Part shown: positions 32,781 through 44,628 of the stretch, one piece after another
Numbering within the stretch: the stretch's first letter is position 1
Layout of the letters: each line of letters opens with the position of its first letter
Source of the DNA: Caldifarciminota bacterium
GTDB lineage: Bacteria > Hydrothermota > Hydrothermia > LBFQ01 > DSFT01
NCBI GenBank assembly: GCA_025060695.1
Contig: JANXBH010000002.1
Coordinates: 62,001 to 126,000, forward strand
Reading direction: 5' to 3'
Length of the DNA: 64,000 nucleotides
Notes under the pieces: model-generated
Seen by the model: the letters and a program-made list of their open reading frames with translations, nothing else
Told to the model about the DNA's origin: nothing
Database searches by the model: none
Translations under genes and position numbers: made by a program

Positions 32781-33677
32781 ATGAAAGGTAAGGACTTAAA
32801 ACTACTCATAAAAATTCACAATTTAAAAAACTCAAAGTCAGTAGTCCTAAAACTTACAACACTCTCAATTAGTATAATGTTTGGTTTCTTTTCAATCTTA
32901 ATATTTTTATTAGTTTTTACGATTTTTACTTCATTTAAATTTGCATTTCTCTACTTAGAAAATATAACTTTAAAAAGGCAAAATCAAAGCCTAAGAAAAT
33001 ACATATCTCAAATAGAAGAAGAAATAAATATAGTAAAAAATAAACTAAAGGACATTTTTGAACTATCCAACAACTTTAGAATTATAGCAGGCATAAATCC
33101 TATACCACAGGATATAAAGTACTTTGGTATAGGCGGATATATTCAAACCAACGATAGCATAAGTAATTTAAAGTTTGAAATAAATAATATAAAAAGACTA
33201 TTAGAACTTGAGATGAAAAATATTAAGGAAGTTGAAAGTATTCTAATTAAAAAGAGAGATGAGCTTTCAAGAATACCAAGTATTCTTCCAGCAAGAGGTA
33301 TAATAGTTTCAAATTTTGGATATAGAAATGACCCATTTACAGGTGAGTGGAAAATGCATGAAGGTATTGATATATCTGCACCAATTGGAACACCTGTGTA
33401 TGCAAGTGCGGATGGAACTGTGATTTTTGCTGGATATAAGGAAGGTTATGGACTTTGTATTGATATTTCACATGGAAATGGTATTATAACAAGGTATGCT
33501 CATCTTTCAAGAATACTTGTAAGTGTAGGACAAAAAGTAAAAAGAAGTGAAATTATAGGTAAAGTGGGCTCAACTGGTCGTTCTACTGGCTCACACTTAC
33601 ATTACGAAATAATAGTCAATGGAACTCCAAAAAATCCTTTAAATTACATAATACTATCGGATGTAGTATATGATTAG
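32781..33677 (+). CDS. M23-family peptidoglycan endopeptidase (LytM type)
   Basis: 298 aa. N-terminal membrane helix (~residues 33-57), a coiled-coil stretch (LEMKNIKEVESILIKKRDE) and a C-terminal M23 domain: IIVSNFGYRNDPFTGEWKMH followed by EGIDISAPIGTPVYASADG with the HxxxD metal motif (H-E-G-I-D), and SHGNGIITRYAHLSRILV and GSTGRSTGSHLHYEI with the HxH. All zinc ligands are present, so it should cut peptide cross-links. It has a full promoter (TTGTTA, 17 bases, TATAAT at 32746-32751) and a Shine-Dalgarno AGGAGGT (32768-32774). Confidence 0.94.
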   Translation: MKGKDLKLLIKIHNLKNSKSVVLKLTTLSISIMFGFFSILIFLLVFTIFTSFKFAFLYLENITLKRQNQSLRKYISQIEEEINIVKNKLKDIFELSNNFRIIAGINPIPQDIKYFGIGGYIQTNDSISNLKFEINNIKRLLELEMKNIKEVESILIKKRDELSRIPSILPARGIIVSNFGYRNDPFTGEWKMHEGIDISAPIGTPVYASADGTVIFAGYKEGYGLCIDISHGNGIITRYAHLSRILVSVGQKVKRSEIIGKVGSTGRSTGSHLHYEIIVNGTPKNPLNYIILSDVVYD

Positions 33678-35091
33678 CTTTATATTTCTTCTTTTAGAGG
33701 AAAACATAAAAAAACATGTATATTTTCTATCAAACGATTACTTAGAAGGAAGGCTTTGTGGTTATAATCAGAAGGCAAGAGACTACATTGAATTTCATCT
33801 AAAAAGATATGGTTATGAAGTAATTAAACAGGAATTTGAAGTAGAGGGGAAAATTAAAATAGATAGTTTTCAAACAAATTTAAGAATTCCAATAAAACCA
33901 CTATATTTTACGAGTAGTGGATATGTAAAATCTGAAGAATTTTCCATTATTGATGGTGATAGCTTTGATAATATAGGTTTAATTCATAAGACTATTGAAG
34001 AAAAAAATAAAAACAAAAAAGGTGTAATATTTTTACTATCCCATCCTATTTCAAAAAGCTACTTTGATAAGAACTTAGGAATAGTCGCCTTACAGCTTCC
34101 AAAAGAATATAAGGATAGTTTAAAAAATAAGAATTTCTTTGTATATCTAAAAGTTTCAAGAGAGAAAGTAAAGGGAGAGAATATATTTGCCGTTAAAAAG
34201 GGAAAAAGTTTAAAATATATAATAGTTGGTGCACATTATGACCATCTTGGATATGGAGATGTAAGTAGTTTAGATACTATATATGATATTCATAACGGTG
34301 CGGACGACAATGCAAGTGGTGTTGCAGGGGTATTAGAGCTTGCCAATTACTATAAAAACAGGGATGTTAGCGATAATATAGTATTTGCATTTTGGGACTG
34401 TGAAGAAGTTGGGACAATTGGTTCAGAATACTATATTAAAAATCCAATATTTCCACTTGAAAATACAAAAATTTATATAAATTTTGATATGATTGGCAGA
34501 TTAAAAGATAGTTCACTTTTAATTATAGGCTCAAAAACTGCTGTTGAAATTGAAGATATATTAAATAGAAGAAATAAACTCTTTAAATTAAAACTTTCCA
34601 ATAGTGGTATAGGTTTTAGCGACCAAAATGCATTTTACAATGCTAAAATACCTGTTTTACACTTCTTTACAAATGTCCATCAAGAATATCATAGGACAAC
34701 TGATGATGCGGAACTTATAAATTATGAGGGACAAAAACAGATTTTACTTTATGCTATTGATGTAATAGATGAAATATTGAAGACTGAAACTTTAACCTTT
34801 AATAAAGTTGAAGAGGAAAAACCTGCAAGAATTTCAAGAGGCGTTAGGCTTGGTATTATTCCAGATTATACTTATGAAGGAGAAGGAGTAAGAATTTCAG
34901 GTGTTTTAAAGAATACACCTGCACAAAATATAGGTTTAACTCAAGGAGATATTATTTTAAAAATAGGAAAATATGAAACTAAGAATATATATGAATTAAC
35001 ATATGCACTCTCAAAGTTTAAAAAATCACAAAGAACAACGATACTTTATAAAAGGGACAATAAAGTAATGAAATCTAATATTAAGTTCTAA
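33670..35091 (+). CDS. M28-family metallopeptidase with PDZ domain
   Basis: 473 aa. Zinc aminopeptidase core: IIVGAHYDHLGYGD, HNGADDNASGVAGVLELA, FWDCEEVGTIGSEYY, NFDMIGRL and VHQEYHRTTDDAELI supply the ligands. A PDZ domain follows (~390-473: IPDYTYEGEGVRISGVLKNT). The typical M28 start 'HV.FLASDELEGR' is read here as KHVYFLSNDYLEGRLCG at residues 15-31, leaving only MISFIFLLL as export signal. It overlaps the M23 gene by 8 bases. Probably periplasmic. Confidence 0.92.
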   Translation: MISFIFLLLEENIKKHVYFLSNDYLEGRLCGYNQKARDYIEFHLKRYGYEVIKQEFEVEGKIKIDSFQTNLRIPIKPLYFTSSGYVKSEEFSIIDGDSFDNIGLIHKTIEEKNKNKKGVIFLLSHPISKSYFDKNLGIVALQLPKEYKDSLKNKNFFVYLKVSREKVKGENIFAVKKGKSLKYIIVGAHYDHLGYGDVSSLDTIYDIHNGADDNASGVAGVLELANYYKNRDVSDNIVFAFWDCEEVGTIGSEYYIKNPIFPLENTKIYINFDMIGRLKDSSLLIIGSKTAVEIEDILNRRNKLFKLKLSNSGIGFSDQNAFYNAKIPVLHFFTNVHQEYHRTTDDAELINYEGQKQILLYAIDVIDEILKTETLTFNKVEEEKPARISRGVRLGIIPDYTYEGEGVRISGVLKNTPAQNIGLTQGDIILKIGKYETKNIYELTYALSKFKKSQRTTILYKRDNKVMKSNIKF

Positions 35092-36566: not shown

Positions 36567-36949
36567 AGTTCTAATTTTCTTTTTAGTTCCTCTTTATCCA
36601 TGAAAACTTGAATTTGATAGCCTTCAGCTATTTTTTTCCCATCTTCATTATATCCTTCTATATCACATATAAATTTATTTCCTTCAACGCTTCTTAAAAT
36701 TGCTATAATTTTTACTTTCTTTCCGATTTTTGTGGGTGCTAAGTGTTTAACAAAAATGCTATAGCCTATACCTTCCTCATTTTCTTTTAAGTACTTTTCA
36801 AGCAGTCTTCTTGATGCAAGCTCTGCATGATATACTAAACTCCACGTTGAATATAAATTATGAATAAGTTTTCCTTCGAATTTCGCTTGCATACTTTCAT
36901 CAGTTATAACTTCAATTTCATAAGTATCTCCTATTTTATAGTCTTTCAT
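36563..36949 (-). CDS. Hotdog-fold thioesterase (FlK-like)
   Basis: 128 aa. Hotdog layout with an N-terminal strand region, a central helix (LYSTWSLVYHAELASRRLLE) and a strand pair (IGYSIFVKHLAPTKIGKKVK, VEGNKFICDIEGYNEDGKKI). This matches fluoroacetyl-CoA thioesterase-like proteins, which hydrolyse acyl-CoA or act as housekeeping thioesterases. Catalysis is not proved by motif alone. It overlaps nuoC and mtnP by four bases each (ATGA). Confidence 0.8.
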   Translation of the reverse strand: MKDYKIGDTYEIEVITDESMQAKFEGKLIHNLYSTWSLVYHAELASRRLLEKYLKENEEGIGYSIFVKHLAPTKIGKKVKIIAILRSVEGNKFICDIEGYNEDGKKIAEGYQIQVFMDKEELKRKLEL

Positions 36950-37368
36950 TTTCTTCTTGCAGGTGGTTTTTCCTCGTGGTTCACCAACCAGTCTCCACTC
37001 CTATAGGGTTCATACTCCATGTGCATTGGAAAGTCCTTTCTTAATGGATGACCTTCGTAATCTTCAGGAAGTAGTATTCTTCTTAGGTCTGGGTGGTCTT
37101 GAAATACTATTCCAAACAGGTCATAAACTTCTCTCTCTTGCCAATTTGCTCCATAGAATATATCACTAATTGTAGGTATTTTGGGATTGTCTTTTGAAAC
37201 TATGCATTTTATAAACTCTTCAGTATTTTCATTTAAGTTTCTAAAGAGATATATAACTTCAAAATTTTCATTTTTATCCACCGCGGTAATAAATGAAAGA
37301 TAGTCAAAACCTTTTTCTTTTAAACTAATAACCTCTTGTCTTATATCCTCCTTTTGCACAACTTTCAT
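36946..37368 (-). CDS. nuoC: NADH-quinone oxidoreductase subunit C-like protein (30 kDa subunit)
   Basis: 140 aa. Carries the complex I 30-kDa signature: YGANWQEREVYDLFGIVFQD, then HPDLRRILLPEDYEGHPLRK and DFPM. In respiratory complexes and in group 4 hydrogenases this subunit joins the peripheral arm to the 49-kDa subunit. None of the usual partners (nuoB, nuoD) is next to it; neighbours are MYG1-like and thioesterase genes. Length is short but complete for the domain. Confidence 0.92.
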   Translation of the reverse strand: MKVVQKEDIRQEVISLKEKGFDYLSFITAVDKNENFEVIYLFRNLNENTEEFIKCIVSKDNPKIPTISDIFYGANWQEREVYDLFGIVFQDHPDLRRILLPEDYEGHPLRKDFPMHMEYEPYRSGDWLVNHEEKPPARRK

Positions 37369-37373
37369 AGTAC

Positions 37374-38267
37374 TTAAAGTTTAAAGTTATTCCTAATATA
37401 ATTTTTAAAAATTTGTATATCTTCACTAATTACTCTTATACTTCCTGTCTTATGCCTAAATATAAGAGTAAAATTTTTAGCTAAGACATCATCAGCGAAG
37501 TCCATGGCAACTTGCATATTCTTCGAGTTTGAATTTACTATGATTGAAGTGTTTTCCTCATTCATGCTATTTCTTTCTATAAGTATATCTATATCTTCTT
37601 TTTCTTCAAAAAATCTTGAGTGAAATGTTGAAAGACTTTGATTACTAATTGTGATTTTCAAAGTTTTTCCTTTATAGTCTAAGTTTAAATATTCTATATT
37701 TTTAAGCTTTTCCTCATATATCTTTTCTTCTTCTTCTATTTCCTCTTGTGCTTTCTGGGTTAAACCCTTTGCCATTAATTCCTCATATAATCTTTCCACA
37801 AATTTAGAATAATCCAAATCTTGTGATAGTAAATTCAATATAATCCTTCCAATTTCTTCATTTGGTTCAATTCTCAATATAGTCTTTATTCTCTTTACGA
37901 GTAAACTATCCTTTTTTACTAAACCTTCAGATTCTGCCCTTGGAAAACCAAACCTATCTATAATATCTATTGCATGAAGTGCACTATTATTGATGTTAAT
38001 TTCTGGAAAAAATTTTTTTAACACTAAAATAATACTGGAATTTATGTTTAAGTCTTGATGATGGTCAAAATTATTTAAATTAGGGTCATAAGAATTCCCA
38101 ACATCTATGAGTATAATTCCACTGTCGTTTAGATATTCTGATGGAACATTTTGAGGATAAATATATTCTATAGTTGCATCTGGATATAAATACTTTAAAA
38201 TAGAAATTGCTAAGAAGTCATCTAAATGACGAGGTGGTAAATGACTAACTATTTTCTTTACTACCAT
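37374..38267 (-). CDS. MYG1-like (UPF0160) DHH-related protein
   Basis: 297 aa. Begins VSHLPPRHLDDFLAISILKY, then IILIDVGNSYDPNLNNFDHH, matching MYG1's GT-H-x(..)DE/DD metal site and the YDP..NFDHHQ motif, which is DHH-like. MYG1 proteins are 3'-5' RNA exonucleases in eukaryotes; bacterial ones are little studied. The first motif reads PPRHLDDF where MYG1 has THxGxFHxDE, so metal binding is plausible but modified. It shares base 38267 with the cmk-rsgA stop. Confidence 0.75.
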   Translation of the reverse strand: MVVKKIVSHLPPRHLDDFLAISILKYLYPDATIEYIYPQNVPSEYLNDSGIILIDVGNSYDPNLNNFDHHQDLNINSSIILVLKKFFPEININNSALHAIDIIDRFGFPRAESEGLVKKDSLLVKRIKTILRIEPNEEIGRIILNLLSQDLDYSKFVERLYEELMAKGLTQKAQEEIEEEEKIYEEKLKNIEYLNLDYKGKTLKITISNQSLSTFHSRFFEEKEDIDILIERNSMNEENTSIIVNSNSKNMQVAMDFADDVLAKNFTLIFRHKTGSIRVISEDIQIFKNYIRNNFKL

Positions 38268-39751
38268 TATAGGAATTTTGTAATTATTTTTAAATAATTT
38301 TCATATCTCTCTTTGTTTATTTTCCCCATGGAAACCGCTTCTACTATTGAGCATCCCTCTTCCTTGATATGAAAACAATCTCTAAATGCACACTTGTATT
38401 TACTAAACTCCCTAAAGCAATTTCTAACATCCTCCTTTTTCATGATTTCATTTAGTTCTATCTTTGAAAATCCCGGAGTATCTGCTATAAATGTTTCATT
38501 ATCAATAGAATATAGTTTTACTTCAGTAGTAGTTTGGGTTCCTCTTTTTAACCTTTTGCTAACTTCACCTATTCTTATATCTACGTTAGCTAAAGCTTTA
38601 ATTAGTGAACTCTTACCTACACCACTCGGTCCAGCTAACACTACCAAGTCCCCCCTTATTCTATTTAAAAGTATATCCAAGTTCATATTTTCTTTTACAC
38701 TAACCGTAATCACTTCATACCCAGCATCTTTATAAATACTTACATATCTTTCTAATTCTTCATTTGGTGTAATATCTACTTTATTGAAAACTATTATACT
38801 TGGAATATTTAAAAATTCACACGCACAAAGAATTTTATCTAACTGAATTTGAACAATTTCAGGTTCTCGTATTGTAAACATTAAAATACACTTAGATACA
38901 TTTGCAATAGGTGGTCTTGGTAATAAATTTGTCCTTTCTTTTATTTTTTCAATTACAAAAAACTCACCTTCTCTTTTCCCAACAACTATATCTCCTACAT
39001 ATATTTTTCTTTCAGATTTTAATAATTTTCCTCTTGGAATAGCCCTAAAGACCTTGCCTTTTGAGATTACACTTAATTTTTGACCCTCTCTTGAAATAAC
39101 AGTTCCTATACATAAGTTCTTTCTAATAATATCAAGTATTTCTTCAATAACTTCATCCTCCCTTAAATTAGTTGTGTCTATTATAAATGCATCACGTGAA
39201 GGTCTAAGCGGTGATATTTCTCTATTTAAATCTGAAATATCTCTATTTTTTAGAATTTCCAGAATATCCTCATATGATACATTACTTTTATTTAACTGCT
39301 TATATCTTCTCATTGCCCTTTCTTCTAATTTTGCGGTTATGTAGAACTTATAATCTGCATCTTTCAAAACAACTGTCCCAATATCCCTTCCCTCTACTAT
39401 TGCTCCATCTTTTGAAAGTTCACGTTGAATGTCAATTAAAAAATCTCTAACTTGCTTAAATTTAGAAATTTCAGATGCAAGATTTCCTACTTTTTCATCC
39501 TTAATATTATCAGTTATATCTTCTCCATTCAAGAATGTTCTTGCAGTTTTATTTATAAATTTTTGTTCTATCTTTAGATTTTTTAAAAATTCAAAATTAT
39601 TATAGTTTTGCATCTTATTCTGGATTATATAGTATGCAATCGCTCTGTATAAAGCCCCGGTTTCTACATACTTTATATTTAGAATCTCACTTAGTTTTTT
39701 TGCAATAGAACTTTTTCCCGAACCTGCTGGACCATCAATGGCAATAATCAT
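38267..39751 (-). CDS. Fused cytidylate kinase - RsgA ribosome-assembly GTPase
   Basis: 494 aa in one frame. Residues 1-~212 are CMP kinase: IAIDGPAGSGKSSIAKKLSE, YVETGALYRAIAYY, AIVEGRDIGTVVL, RPSRDAFIIDTTNL. Residues ~213-494 are RsgA, a circularly permuted GTPase that matures the 30S subunit: OB domain, FNKVD (323-326), LAGPSGVGKSSLIKALA (P-loop 374-382), RGTQTTTEV, DTPGFSKIEL and a zinc site FSKYKCAFRDCFHIKEEGCS. Both halves look catalytically intact. No start signal is seen at the junction. It begins in a TAATG overlap with bamA. Confidence 0.9.
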   Translation of the reverse strand: MIIAIDGPAGSGKSSIAKKLSEILNIKYVETGALYRAIAYYIIQNKMQNYNNFEFLKNLKIEQKFINKTARTFLNGEDITDNIKDEKVGNLASEISKFKQVRDFLIDIQRELSKDGAIVEGRDIGTVVLKDADYKFYITAKLEERAMRRYKQLNKSNVSYEDILEILKNRDISDLNREISPLRPSRDAFIIDTTNLREDEVIEEILDIIRKNLCIGTVISREGQKLSVISKGKVFRAIPRGKLLKSERKIYVGDIVVGKREGEFFVIEKIKERTNLLPRPPIANVSKCILMFTIREPEIVQIQLDKILCACEFLNIPSIIVFNKVDITPNEELERYVSIYKDAGYEVITVSVKENMNLDILLNRIRGDLVVLAGPSGVGKSSLIKALANVDIRIGEVSKRLKRGTQTTTEVKLYSIDNETFIADTPGFSKIELNEIMKKEDVRNCFREFSKYKCAFRDCFHIKEEGCSIVEAVSMGKINKERYENYLKIITKFL

Positions 39752-42003
39752 TAGTAGTATGGACCTAAATTAAAGTGAGTTTTAAATTCTTTGTACTTTA
39801 AACTATATGCAAAATCAAATCCCATAATTCCTACTATCGGAACCTCTATTCTAAAACCTATACCAATTGCATCATAAAGGTTTCTAAAGTCTATAGTTTT
39901 AATTGCCCACCAGCTATTTCCTGTTTCGTAAAATAATGAGATATAAAATTGGTCAGCAGGTCTAATTCTTTCCTCAAATGTAAACCTAAAAAAGTGCTTT
40001 CCTCCAAGAACGCTTGCACCCACCCTTGTCCCGATTGACCTAAAATCATAACCCCTTAAGCCCAATGGTCCTACGTCTCCAAGTGCAAAATATTCATATG
40101 GTGGAAGATCCTGCTTTGCCAATATTGAAAATATTGAACCCCAGTTTACTCTAAGAAATGATACTAACTTATCTTTGTAATTGGGAATTAGTATAATTAG
40201 TTCGGGAATAAATTTTATATAATGCAAATTTCCACCAATTGGACCACCTGTAATAGTCCAAGGAAAACTAAATGAATATCCCTTTGAAGAATTAAACACT
40301 CTGTCTCTTGTATCATAGCTAAAGGTTGTAGTTAGTGAGCTTGATAGAACCCTTGGATTTTTTGTCCAAAAATCATAAAATTGACTTCCTTCATATAGTG
40401 GACTTATATCATAAACAGAAATGTACTCAAATGTATAGTCAAATTTTATTCTTGAAAATAAATTCCAAAGTCTTCTACCATAACTTATGGAAATCCCTGT
40501 ATTTCTTTGATTAAAAGTAAAAAGATATCTATTTAGACTATAAATATTTATACCCACAAGAATAGGTTTTCCTCCGAACCAAGGTTCAGTAAACGAAATT
40601 TGAAAGTTTTGTCTTCTTGCTCCATACTCCGCTAAAAAACCAATAGTCCAGCCTCTTCCAAGAAAATTTGGCTGCTGTAAATTTACATTAAAAAATAGTC
40701 CATCAAGCTGACTATAACTTGCACCTGCTCCAATTTGACCTGTAGGCTTTTCCTCAACTTTTATCTCTAAATCTACAAGACTAGAATCTTCTAAAACTGG
40801 CTTAAAGTTTACTCCTATATTTGAAAAGTAGTTTAAATAGTAGAGATTTCTATAAGAAAGTAAGAGCAAGCTTCTATTAAAGTAGTCTCCAGGAAATATA
40901 TAAATTTCTCTTCTAATAATTTCATCCCAAGTTTTAGTATTTCCATATATATTTACAAGTCTAACTTTCACTTTCCAATTTTCCTTAATCTTAAACTTCA
41001 CATTAATTGTACTATCGTTTTTTTCTTCAATAGGTTCAACTTGTGCATATATATACCCGCTATCAGCATATAAACTACTTATATTATTTGAGCTTTCTAA
41101 AACTTTTGCCCTTGAATATAATTTAGAATTATACCAAATACCATAACCTAATCTATATCTAATTGAATTAAAGAAGTTTAGTGGCTTTTTAATAGTTATC
41201 GCATTTTCTAATTGACTATTTTTAAACTTACTGTTTCCTTCAAAATTAATACTACCAAAATAGTATTTTTTACCTTCATTTAGGAAAATTTTTATTTTTA
41301 CAAACTTTTCTTCATATTCAAACTTAAATGAATCCACTTTAAAGTCAGCAAAACCACTATTTTTATAAAAATCTTCTAATGTTATTAAGTCTTTATCAAA
41401 TTTTTCCTGCGAGAAATAGCCTCCCCTTAATATCTTTCTAATAAAATTAACCTCCTTATTTGATAGTAAATTCTTCAAGAGCCTATCAGAAAAACTTCTA
41501 TTTCCGTAAAATTCAATCTTTGATATTCTATACTTTTGTCCTACATTACCAGAGATTATTAATTCTACTTTTGAATTATCTATAAATTTTTCTCTGATTT
41601 CTATCTTTGGATTCACATAACCCTTAGTAATGTAAAATTTTTCTATTAACTTAGAAATTTTATATTTATTGTAATTACTTGCTGGAAGACCTTTATAAAA
41701 TGATATTGAATCTTCAAATTCTTTTGAAACTTTCTTAATTTCCCACTTAAAGCCATTTATTGTAGGATAGTCTGAAACTTTAAATATTAAATCAAGTGTA
41801 TCCTTTTTAAACTTACCATATACTTCAAAACTATCCAAGAAACCCTTTTCATATACGTCATATAAATAGTTTCTAAAGAATGGTTCTTGAAATGGCATAT
41901 TTTCCTTTAAGAGCAAATTGTAAAGAAAGCTACTTTTTGAACGATATTTTAACCCTTGAACTTCAATTTTCCCTATAAACTGACCTAAAATGATTATTAG
42001 CAA
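39751..42003 (-). CDS. bamA: Outer-membrane assembly factor BamA (Omp85)
   Basis: 750 aa. N-terminal POTRA repeats (KIEVQGLKYRSKSSFLYNLL, ISKIEFYGNRSFSDRLLKNL, FGSINFEGNSKFKNSQLENA, VNIYGNTKTWDEIIRREI) are followed by a 16-strand barrel with LRGYDFRSIG, GGKHFFRFTFE and a terminal ...FNLGPYY. It inserts barrels into the outer membrane and shows that the cell is diderm. The TTG start is fixed by a -10 box (42012-42017) eight bases upstream. Only MLIIILGQF precedes the first POTRA, a very short signal. First gene of a six-gene operon. Confidence 0.94.
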   Translation of the reverse strand: MLIIILGQFIGKIEVQGLKYRSKSSFLYNLLLKENMPFQEPFFRNYLYDVYEKGFLDSFEVYGKFKKDTLDLIFKVSDYPTINGFKWEIKKVSKEFEDSISFYKGLPASNYNKYKISKLIEKFYITKGYVNPKIEIREKFIDNSKVELIISGNVGQKYRISKIEFYGNRSFSDRLLKNLLSNKEVNFIRKILRGGYFSQEKFDKDLITLEDFYKNSGFADFKVDSFKFEYEEKFVKIKIFLNEGKKYYFGSINFEGNSKFKNSQLENAITIKKPLNFFNSIRYRLGYGIWYNSKLYSRAKVLESSNNISSLYADSGYIYAQVEPIEEKNDSTINVKFKIKENWKVKVRLVNIYGNTKTWDEIIRREIYIFPGDYFNRSLLLLSYRNLYYLNYFSNIGVNFKPVLEDSSLVDLEIKVEEKPTGQIGAGASYSQLDGLFFNVNLQQPNFLGRGWTIGFLAEYGARRQNFQISFTEPWFGGKPILVGINIYSLNRYLFTFNQRNTGISISYGRRLWNLFSRIKFDYTFEYISVYDISPLYEGSQFYDFWTKNPRVLSSSLTTTFSYDTRDRVFNSSKGYSFSFPWTITGGPIGGNLHYIKFIPELIILIPNYKDKLVSFLRVNWGSIFSILAKQDLPPYEYFALGDVGPLGLRGYDFRSIGTRVGASVLGGKHFFRFTFEERIRPADQFYISLFYETGNSWWAIKTIDFRNLYDAIGIGFRIEVPIVGIMGFDFAYSLKYKEFKTHFNLGPYY

Positions 42004-42035: not shown

Positions 42036-42749
42036 TTGAAAAGAAGAGAATTTTTAAAGATTATAGCTATAAGTAGTCTTTTAACCTTAATAAAAGTAAA
42101 TACTTTAGAAGCAAAAAAAGGAGGTAAGAAGATGCCATTTACAGAATATAAAGCTAAGAACTATAAGGAAATAAGACCTCAACTTTGGAACATGGATGGT
42201 ATATCTCAAAAGACTATGGACGAACATATAAAACTATACGAAGGGTATGTTTCAAAATACAATGAAGCTATGAAACTCTTAGAAAATCTTAGTGATGATG
42301 ATTATACAAAGGCAAACCCTACTTATTCTACAATCAGAAGTATAAAGGTAGATATTACAAGAGCCATTGGTGGAATAAAAAATCACGAGCTATATTTTGA
42401 ACACTTAGGAGGAAAAGGCGGAAAACCAGAAGGAAAACTTCTTGAACAAATTGAAAAAGACTTTGGTAATTATGAAAGATTTTTAAAAGAATTGAGAGCT
42501 ACTGCAATGGCAGCAAGAGGATGGGCATGGGTTTCATATGACCATAACTTTAAAAGGCTATTTATAGCTATAGGTGATGAGCAAAATACTTTTCCAATTT
42601 GGAACTCTACACCTATTTTAGGTATAGATGTATTTGAACATGCATATTTTATAGACTATGGAACTGCAAGGGCAAAGTATTTAGATGCATTCTTTCAAAA
42701 TCTTGACTGGAAAGCTGTAGAAAAAAACTTTGAGAGCTTAAAGATATAA
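42036..42749 (+). CDS. Iron/manganese superoxide dismutase with Tat-type leader
   Basis: 237 aa. SOD core: QKTMDEHIKLYEGYVSKYNE, IRSIKVDITRAIGGIKNHEL, YFEHLGG, RGWAWVSYD and GIDVFEHAYFIDYGTARAKY carry the metal ligands (His, His, Asp, His). Residues 1-26 look like a twin-arginine leader (KRREFLKIIAISSLLTL, then EAK). The TTG start is set by a -10 box at 42023-42028. An internal ATG at 42132 has a strong Shine-Dalgarno and would give a 205-aa cytosolic form. Divergent from bamA. Confidence 0.92.
   Translation: MKRREFLKIIAISSLLTLIKVNTLEAKKGGKKMPFTEYKAKNYKEIRPQLWNMDGISQKTMDEHIKLYEGYVSKYNEAMKLLENLSDDDYTKANPTYSTIRSIKVDITRAIGGIKNHELYFEHLGGKGGKPEGKLLEQIEKDFGNYERFLKELRATAMAARGWAWVSYDHNFKRLFIAIGDEQNTFPIWNSTPILGIDVFEHAYFIDYGTARAKYLDAFFQNLDWKAVEKNFESLKI
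42119..42125 (+). promoter_or_regulatory. Internal Shine-Dalgarno in superoxide dismutase gene
   Basis: AGGAGGT, six bases before in-frame ATG 42132, exactly where the leader ends and the mature enzyme begins. It could start a cytosolic form of the enzyme. Confidence 0.5.
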
Positions 42750-43101: not shown

Positions 43102-44628
43102 ATGATAAGAGGTATTTATATTATTGGGCTTCCGGGTTCACATAGAAAATCTATATCTGAATATTTAAAAAACTGGCTTGATTGGAAAATTATAGATTTA
43201 CAAGAAGAAGTTGAAAGAAAACTTCACAAGACAATAATTGAAGTTATACAAGAAAACAAACTAAAGGAATTTGAAGAAGAACAGGAAAGGTTAATGCTTG
43301 GCAATATATTTGCAGGTGAAATATTTATTTCCTCTGATATAATACCAAAACCGGAAATTATAGAAAAACTTAAAAATAATGGGATAATACCTATATATTT
43401 AAGCTACTCCAGACAATCGCTTGAAAGAGAACTTGAAAAAAGTCAAGAACCACATACAATACTTAGAATACATCCATACGAGGATTATGAAAAGGAAATA
43501 GAATTAGCAAGTGAACTTCTAATTAAAGTTCCTACAGAAGGCTTTTCGGACAAAGAAATCGCACTAATGATAGTTAGAAGCCTTAAAGGTGAATATGACC
43601 TTATTTTTAGCAATAATGATAAAGTATATAGTGGTATCAATTCCTTTCATTATATAGAAGAAATACTTGATTATGAAGGATTTATTAATGCACTATTTAT
43701 TACTTATAAAAGACACTTTCTTATAAACTTTAAGTGGGTATTTGATGTAATAAAAAAGTCAAGTTTTGAACCATATGTATTTTTTATTCCTGAAAAAGAA
43801 GAAATAAAAGAATTAGAATTTGTTAAGAAGATATGGCATGAAATTATAAATTTAAAGATAAGAAAGAATACCGCAATTGTTGGTATGGGTGGGGGAAGTT
43901 GTCTTGACTTGGTAGGATTTTCAGCATCAACATTTAGAAGAGGTTTTCCATTTGTTTCAATTCCAACAACATTTATATCTCAAATAGATGCAAGTATTGG
44001 TGGGAGAAATTCGCTACACTATATAGGAAATAAAAATATACTTGGGACAATTTACTATCCAAGATTCATTCTAATTGACCCTGTTTTCATATTAAGCTAT
44101 GACGATACTAAATTTTTATATTCATTAAGCGATGCGGTTAGATATGGACTTCTTTTTGATGAAAGCATATTAGATTTTCTTGAAAGAGAGGCAAATAAGA
44201 TAAAATTAAAGTACTTACCTACAATTGACAGTCTCGTAAGAAAATGTGCTCTTCATAAGCTAAACGTATCTTATTTAGATCCTTATGGTTGGTCTCAGCT
44301 TAGACCATTAGAATTCGGAAATACAATAGCTTACTTAATACAAGAAACATTACACTTAGACTATCAAAGAGCATTGACAAAAAGCATTTATTTAATTTTA
44401 AAATTCCTATCAAGTCAAAATATACTAAAAGATAAGAAAATTTTTGAAAAGGTTATAGGTATATTTGATAATTATGGACTAGAATATAAGCTTGAAAATG
44501 GCGATATAGAAAAACTTTACAAAAAGTGCAATTTAGATGAAATTGAGATTTTTGGAATTGAGACTTATAAGTCTCCAATTCCACTAAGAATAAATAAAGA
44601 TGATTTCTTTAGAAGTTTAGAAAGTTGA
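43102..44628 (+). CDS. Degenerate shikimate kinase - 3-dehydroquinate synthase-like fusion
   Basis: 508 aa. Residues 1-~160 resemble shikimate kinase, but the P-loop reads GLPGSHRKS, not GxxGxGKS. Residues ~165-508 resemble DHQ synthase: MGGGSCLDLVGFSASTFRRG, SIPTTFISQIDASIGGRNSL, GNKNILGTIYYPRFILIDP. The metal and active-site region is changed: the AEVIKYG motif is SDAVRYG, and NFGHTxGHA is EFGNTIAYL, losing the metal-ligand His. The frame is intact and compact. It is either a very divergent enzyme or a pseudoenzyme. It abuts its upstream neighbour and overlaps the capA-like gene downstream. Confidence 0.7.
   Translation: MIRGIYIIGLPGSHRKSISEYLKNWLDWKIIDLQEEVERKLHKTIIEVIQENKLKEFEEEQERLMLGNIFAGEIFISSDIIPKPEIIEKLKNNGIIPIYLSYSRQSLERELEKSQEPHTILRIHPYEDYEKEIELASELLIKVPTEGFSDKEIALMIVRSLKGEYDLIFSNNDKVYSGINSFHYIEEILDYEGFINALFITYKRHFLINFKWVFDVIKKSSFEPYVFFIPEKEEIKELEFVKKIWHEIINLKIRKNTAIVGMGGGSCLDLVGFSASTFRRGFPFVSIPTTFISQIDASIGGRNSLHYIGNKNILGTIYYPRFILIDPVFILSYDDTKFLYSLSDAVRYGLLFDESILDFLEREANKIKLKYLPTIDSLVRKCALHKLNVSYLDPYGWSQLRPLEFGNTIAYLIQETLHLDYQRALTKSIYLILKFLSSQNILKDKKIFEKVIGIFDNYGLEYKLENGDIEKLYKKCNLDEIEIFGIETYKSPIPLRINKDDFFRSLES

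Follow-up and report, generated by a model that had tools for sequence, protein, structure and literature searches.

A single gene in this bacterium encodes a genuine fusion of cytidylate kinase (Cmk) to the GTPase RsgA, which is kept within its genus. We consider it most probable, at roughly 0.8, that this is a lineage-specific gene fusion that gives a bifunctional housekeeping protein. This reading is supported by sequence and model evidence: both halves match their families over the full length and above curated cut-offs, the only cmk and rsgA copies of the genome sit in the fusion, the fusion has been kept in two species with both halves constrained, the junction has zero linker and lies in a stretch (codons 148-290) that contains no in-frame standard start, and solved structures from both families match the corresponding halves.

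Results

A single frame holds complete Cmk and RsgA

The window, which is the whole stretch of 64,000 nucleotides that was analysed, contains the following features at this locus.

38267..39751, (-): Cmk-RsgA fusion gene, 494 aa; the genome assembly has no other copy of either domain
39116..39751, (-): N-terminal (d)CMP kinase domain, residues 1-212, identified by Pfam, NCBIfam, alignment and structure match
38270..39115, (-): C-terminal RsgA, with an OB fold from residue 214, a circularly permuted GTPase (270-433) and a zinc finger (454-467)
38453..38944, (-): RsgA GTPase domain, in the order G4 (NKVD)-G5-G1 (GPSGVGKSS)-G2 (RGTQTTT)-G3 (DTPG)
38525..38545, (-): switch I/G2 motif RGTQTTT, residues 403-409, with Gln at the position of the RsgA catalytic His
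38351..38392, (-): RsgA zinc finger CAFRDCFHIKEEGC, residues 454-467, which fits Cx(F/Y)xxCxHxx(E/D)xxC
39751..42003, (-): bamA, directly upstream of the fusion; its TAA overlaps the fusion ATG by one base (TAATG)
37374..38267, (-): downstream ORF, 297 aa, with weak N-terminal similarity to the MYG1 exonuclease family

The sequence-only reading of this DNA had claimed that Cmk and RsgA share one uninterrupted frame of 494 codons, which we confirmed at 38267-39751 and assigned to the minus strand, a detail absent from that reading. The frame begins with ATG, ends with TAA and contains no internal stop, and every motif position given in that reading matches the fusion sequence. Residues 1-212 form a complete (d)CMP kinase, which a complete RsgA (residues 213-494) follows without a linker, and solved Cmk and RsgA proteins align without a break along the respective halves. 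No further cmk or rsgA over the family cut-offs was found in the source genome (77 contigs, 94.9% complete). An AlphaFold model of the fusion, for which 16 related window and locus sequences served as input, had a mean pLDDT of 85.2 and a pTM of 0.59, and the packing of the two halves is poorly determined in it.

Residues 3-210 match the Pfam model Cytidylate_kin (E 5.8e-68, score 229 against a cut-off of 26), and the NCBIfam cmk model TIGR00017 gave 218.8 bits (cut-off 135.55). The Cmk motifs comprise the P-loop GPAGSGKS (7-14), EGRDIGT (120-126) and RDISDLNREISPLRPSRDAF (170-189), the last of which includes RPSRDAF (183-189); the Walker A P-loop and the CMP-site motifs aligned to those of 2h92 and 3r8c. 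When modelled residues 1-212 were compared with the E. coli CMP kinase 2cmk, 211 residues aligned with a Z of 25.8 and an rmsd of 2.0.

The RsgA half also scored well above its thresholds, with 164 for Pfam RsgA_GTPase over residues 270-433 (E 3.2e-48, cut-off 30) and 214.6 bits for NCBIfam TIGR00157 (cut-off 100). OB-fold strands occupy residues 214-270 of the AlphaFold model, and the circular permutation of the GTPase is present, with NKVD at 323-326, SVKEN at 351, GPSGVGKSS at 374-382, RGTQTTT at 403-409 and DTPG at 424-427. Modelled residues 207-494 matched Aquifex YjeQ (2yv5) with a Z of 30.6 and an rmsd of 2.8 over 276 aligned residues. In a tree of 13 sequences, RsgA of the fusion's family joined Aquifex and not family f2 of the same order (ultrafast bootstrap 87), which is only a hint that the RsgA half (38270-39115) may have come by horizontal transfer.

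The junction contains no linker and no ordinary start codon

In both the alignment and the AlphaFold model, the Cmk helix formed by residues 198-212 leads directly into the OB-fold strand of residues 214-222. Standalone Cmk proteins end at about this junction in the alignment, and Leu214 (TTA in both species that carry the fusion) lies opposite the start Met of the RsgA that G003, a genome of the sister genus, encodes as a standalone protein. The sequence-only reading had named a start and stop at the junction as an argument against a fusion, and these were excluded for standard codons. Specifically, no in-frame ATG, GTG or TTG was found between codons 148 and 290 of the window gene, in which RsgA begins at about residue 214, so only a rare start codon could give rise to a separate RsgA. 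We rejected on this basis a separate RsgA produced from an ordinary start codon at the junction.

Internal initiation at the junction would let the one frame yield two proteins. The fusion of the second species (genome G001) does contain an in-frame ATG (codon 196) and GTG (codon 201) just ahead of the junction, and rare starts (ATT, ATA) are possible in principle. However, the start candidates are not common to both species, and the window gene has none in the stretch described above, which makes production of two proteins from this frame very improbable.

A second species carries the same fusion under purifying selection

One other species of the genus was examined (G001), and its genome encodes the same fusion on contig JAUQPS010000016.1 of the MAG JZ-1.bins.166, with 71% identity over residues 1-493 and a gap-free junction. 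JZ-1 denotes a JinZe site in Tengchong, Yunnan (PMC6783470), and we infer from its name that this MAG came from the Tengchong hot spring at that site. No second cmk or rsgA above the cut-offs was found in G001. Identity between the two fusions is even across the halves, at 72% for Cmk and 70% for RsgA. The Cmk half showed a dN of 0.21 and a dS of 2.3 and the RsgA half a dN of 0.22 and a dS of 1.2, with dS near saturation, and purifying selection acts on both halves.

These data also bear on whether the joint arose as a chimera of assembly or binning, an error that the sequence-only reading had named as one that would undo the fusion. Only two genomes carry the fusion and each is a fragmented assembly, with 7% contamination in G001, which leaves some room for such an error. 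However, the joint recurs, free of indels, in an independent MAG from another species, and the two fusions are about 70% identical across both halves, which indicates that the joint is not an assembly error. Furthermore, neither gene has a second copy in the genome. Assembly error is therefore very unlikely, to the point of being negligible, and we rejected the assembly chimera because the identical joint was found in the second species.

The RsgA half has glutamine at the catalytic histidine position of switch I

The catalytic histidine of RsgA sits two residues before the G2 threonine (PMC8579695). Gln occupies this position in the fusion (Gln406), in its G001 counterpart and in the RsgA that stands alone in G003; in the alignment, the motif reads RGTQTTT in both fusions and RGRQTTV in the standalone protein. 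The RsgA proteins of Aquifex, Thermotoga and B. subtilis contain RGRHTTT or a close form, with His in 2yv5, 1u0l and 1t9h, and His is kept in all aligned RsgA relatives of family f2. This His is a feature of typical RsgA members and not part of the definition of membership in the family model. Because the standalone G003 protein has Gln too, the substitution is older than the fusion and not decay caused by it. The catalytic His of switch I in RsgA can be replaced by Gln, and the replacement has been kept across two genera.

GTP hydrolysis by the fusion may be altered through this substitution, which raises the question of whether one half is a degenerate passenger, with an RsgA GTPase that is altered or inactive. 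Such decay would be consistent with the RGTQTTT of both fusions in place of RGxHTTT and with the description of the His as catalytic (PMC8579695). However, the G1, G2 Thr, G3, G4 and zinc motifs are intact, the RsgA half is under strong purifying selection, and the occurrence of Gln in the standalone G003 protein marks it as a stable family trait. We consequently regard decay of one half as distinctly improbable and favor a protein with two working halves.

The fusion follows bamA

The pairing of bamA with the fusion is kept in G001, where a one-base gap separates the two genes (TAATATG); the other neighbors differ. In the window, the 297-aa MYG1-like ORF overlaps the end of the fusion by one base, and this ORF is not beside the fusion in G001. 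From this arrangement, the fusion is probably translated directly after BamA on a shared mRNA, with translational coupling of the two.

Several other genes surround this locus. A NuoC-like gene (complex I 30 kDa; 36946-37368, (-)) is flanked by a thioesterase-like gene and the MYG1-like ORF, in the same-strand run as bamA and cmk-rsgA, and no other complex I gene was seen alongside. Divergent from bamA is a gene for an Fe/Mn superoxide dismutase (42036-42749, (+)), the N-terminus of which, MKRREFLK, resembles a twin-arginine export signal. A 508-aa ORF (43102-44628, (+)) encodes a C-terminal 3-dehydroquinate synthase; its N-terminal ~165 residues have by eye the look of a shikimate-kinase P-loop (GLPGSHRKS), with no recognition by Pfam, and the ORF may be a fusion of the AroK-AroB type in which the kinase is degenerate.

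Within the phylum, the fusion was found in one genus only

The sequence-only reading had suggested checking whether the fusion recurs across the phylum, and it does not. We searched 147 genomes of the phylum, and among the matches listed none of the 145 others encodes the fusion; a full fusion would rank above weak matches and hence fall within the matches listed. Most phylum genomes outside the fusion's order gave no clear RsgA match with the fusion as query, and rsgA looks patchy in the phylum. Sampling beyond the phylum comprised 398 Bacillota genomes, plasmid records, viral contigs and one pattern-based genome scan. In the Bacillota genomes, cmk and rsgA match separately and none of the matches listed joins the halves. 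Matches were found in 77 plasmid records, none of which covers 80% of the query, and the viral contigs gave no match to the fusion. The genome scan relied on six exact peptide patterns, so it reaches close relatives only. With this limited sampling outside the phylum, independent Cmk-RsgA cases elsewhere in bacteria are possible.

Among the relatives, cmk and rsgA occur apart. They are on different contigs in G003 and likewise in family f2, in which both are present, and G002, a 96% complete genome of the sister genus g2, contains cmk and lacks an RsgA match over the Pfam cut-off. The cmk gene adjoins an acyltransferase gene in G002 and coaE in the f2 genome G004; other f2 genomes have genes of the same length in the same place after cmk. 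In the sister genus, a small convergent ORF comes after bamA, with neither cmk nor rsgA there.

The frequent linkage of cmk to rpsA had been proposed as the origin of the fusion. Such linkage was found elsewhere in the class, with a cmk-x-ispH-rpsA cluster (ispH encoding LytB and rpsA encoding S1) in G013 and, by similarity, in G031, and was not seen in the fusion's own order. There, cmk adjoins coaE or the acyltransferase gene and rsgA is on other contigs. In the window, rpsA is neither next to cmk nor fused with it, as the neighbors are bamA and the MYG1-like ORF. An origin from cmk-rpsA linkage is thus not supported. The simplest history would be that, in the ancestor of the genus, cmk and rsgA became neighbors behind bamA and were then fused end to end when the cmk stop was lost. 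The alignment of Leu214 with the start Met of the standalone G003 RsgA is what such a joining would predict.

A gene for an M28 peptidase with a PDZ domain (33670-35091, (+)) lies ~3 kb from the fusion, and a homologue (L040, 4560-6059) directly adjoins the standalone rsgA in G003. This gene may lie near the fusion as a leftover of the ancestral rsgA location, or by chance.

Discussion

In the bifunctional protein that we propose, the N-terminal half would turn CMP and dCMP into CDP and dCDP, and the C-terminal half would serve as the GTPase that checks late maturation of the 30S subunit. In E. coli, RsgA has an established role in RbfA release and maturation of the decoding center (PMC4436671, PMC9032327). 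A B. subtilis relative has a side phosphatase activity on 4-phosphoerythronate (PMC12445079), so a metabolic side role is open to RsgA proteins. The two halves would be co-expressed, and probably both are active and the domains act largely independently.

The sequence-only reading had held that CMP supply and 30S maturation are tied in one polypeptide. The part of this claim that concerns covalent linkage and shared expression stands; for functional coupling, nothing further is visible. Coupling would mean that the tethered Cmk ties 30S maturation to pyrimidine status or that RsgA brings Cmk to ribosomes. The zero-linker joint kept in two species is consistent with this idea, as is the recurrence of the theme in other bacteria, in which Cmk is fused to the ribosome-assembly GTPase Der (PMC3323550). 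RsgA also already answers to metabolic state via (p)ppGpp (PMC8579695). However, the fusion has no extra regulatory domain or linker and is restricted to one genus, each activity is expected to work alone, and cmk and rsgA are not co-localized in relatives. We therefore view functional coupling as unlikely. A more specific form, to which we give slightly less credence again, would make the zero-linker fusion a regulatory device in which CMP or CTP sensed by Cmk alters the 30S checkpoint of RsgA, or docking controls CDP output, with the Gln of switch I changing the GTPase cycle. If the halves are independent, which is most likely, the fusion is a minor curiosity of gene fusion.

Comparison with known proteins and fusions

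Relative to (d)CMP kinases (TIGR00017), the fusion contains the whole family profile, including the P-loop and CMP-site motifs, but its Cmk has no free C-terminus and the last helix runs on into RsgA. Relative to RsgA/YjeQ/CpgA proteins (TIGR00157), it contains the OB fold, the permuted G4-G5-G1-G2-G3 GTPase and the zinc finger, and its RsgA half is 45-47% identical to the closest solved relative, Aquifex aeolicus YjeQ (2yv5). Unlike those proteins, it adds a 212-residue N-terminal Cmk domain and, as in the standalone G003 RsgA, has Gln in place of the catalytic His of switch I.

The sequence-only reading knew of no common family with this pairing, and our searches agree, as neither NCBIfam nor the literature search yielded a named one: there is no NCBIfam model for Cmk-RsgA, and we found no paper that combines cytidylate kinase, RsgA and fusion. 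The bifunctional Cmk models in NCBIfam are PanC-Cmk, AroA-Cmk and Cmk-Der only. PanC-Cmk (NF010004) and AroA-Cmk (NF008816) resemble the fusion in joining Cmk to another housekeeping enzyme, but the partner differs and Cmk is C-terminal in those models. Closer in design is Cmk/GTPase Der (NF007071, PRK09518), which occurs in corynebacteria and other actinobacteria and likewise places an N-terminal Cmk and a C-terminal ribosome-assembly GTPase in one chain. Proteins uniting cytidylate kinase and an EngA-like GTPase have been described in corynebacteria, and adjacent cmk and engA genes in mycobacteria (PMC3323550). Der/EngA, however, has tandem G domains and belongs to a different family from RsgA, and the fusion is not a member of NF007071, against which it scored 151.9 bits (cut-off 953) with the best stretch covering only the Cmk part. 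With this fusion, RsgA joins the known partners of Cmk, and Cmk-Der is no longer the only case in which Cmk is fused to a GTPase of ribosome assembly. One small protein therefore offers a way to test for a link of pyrimidine nucleotide supply to ribosome assembly. Fusions of Cmk as such are already known, and Cmk-RsgA is a new combination of two well-known housekeeping proteins.
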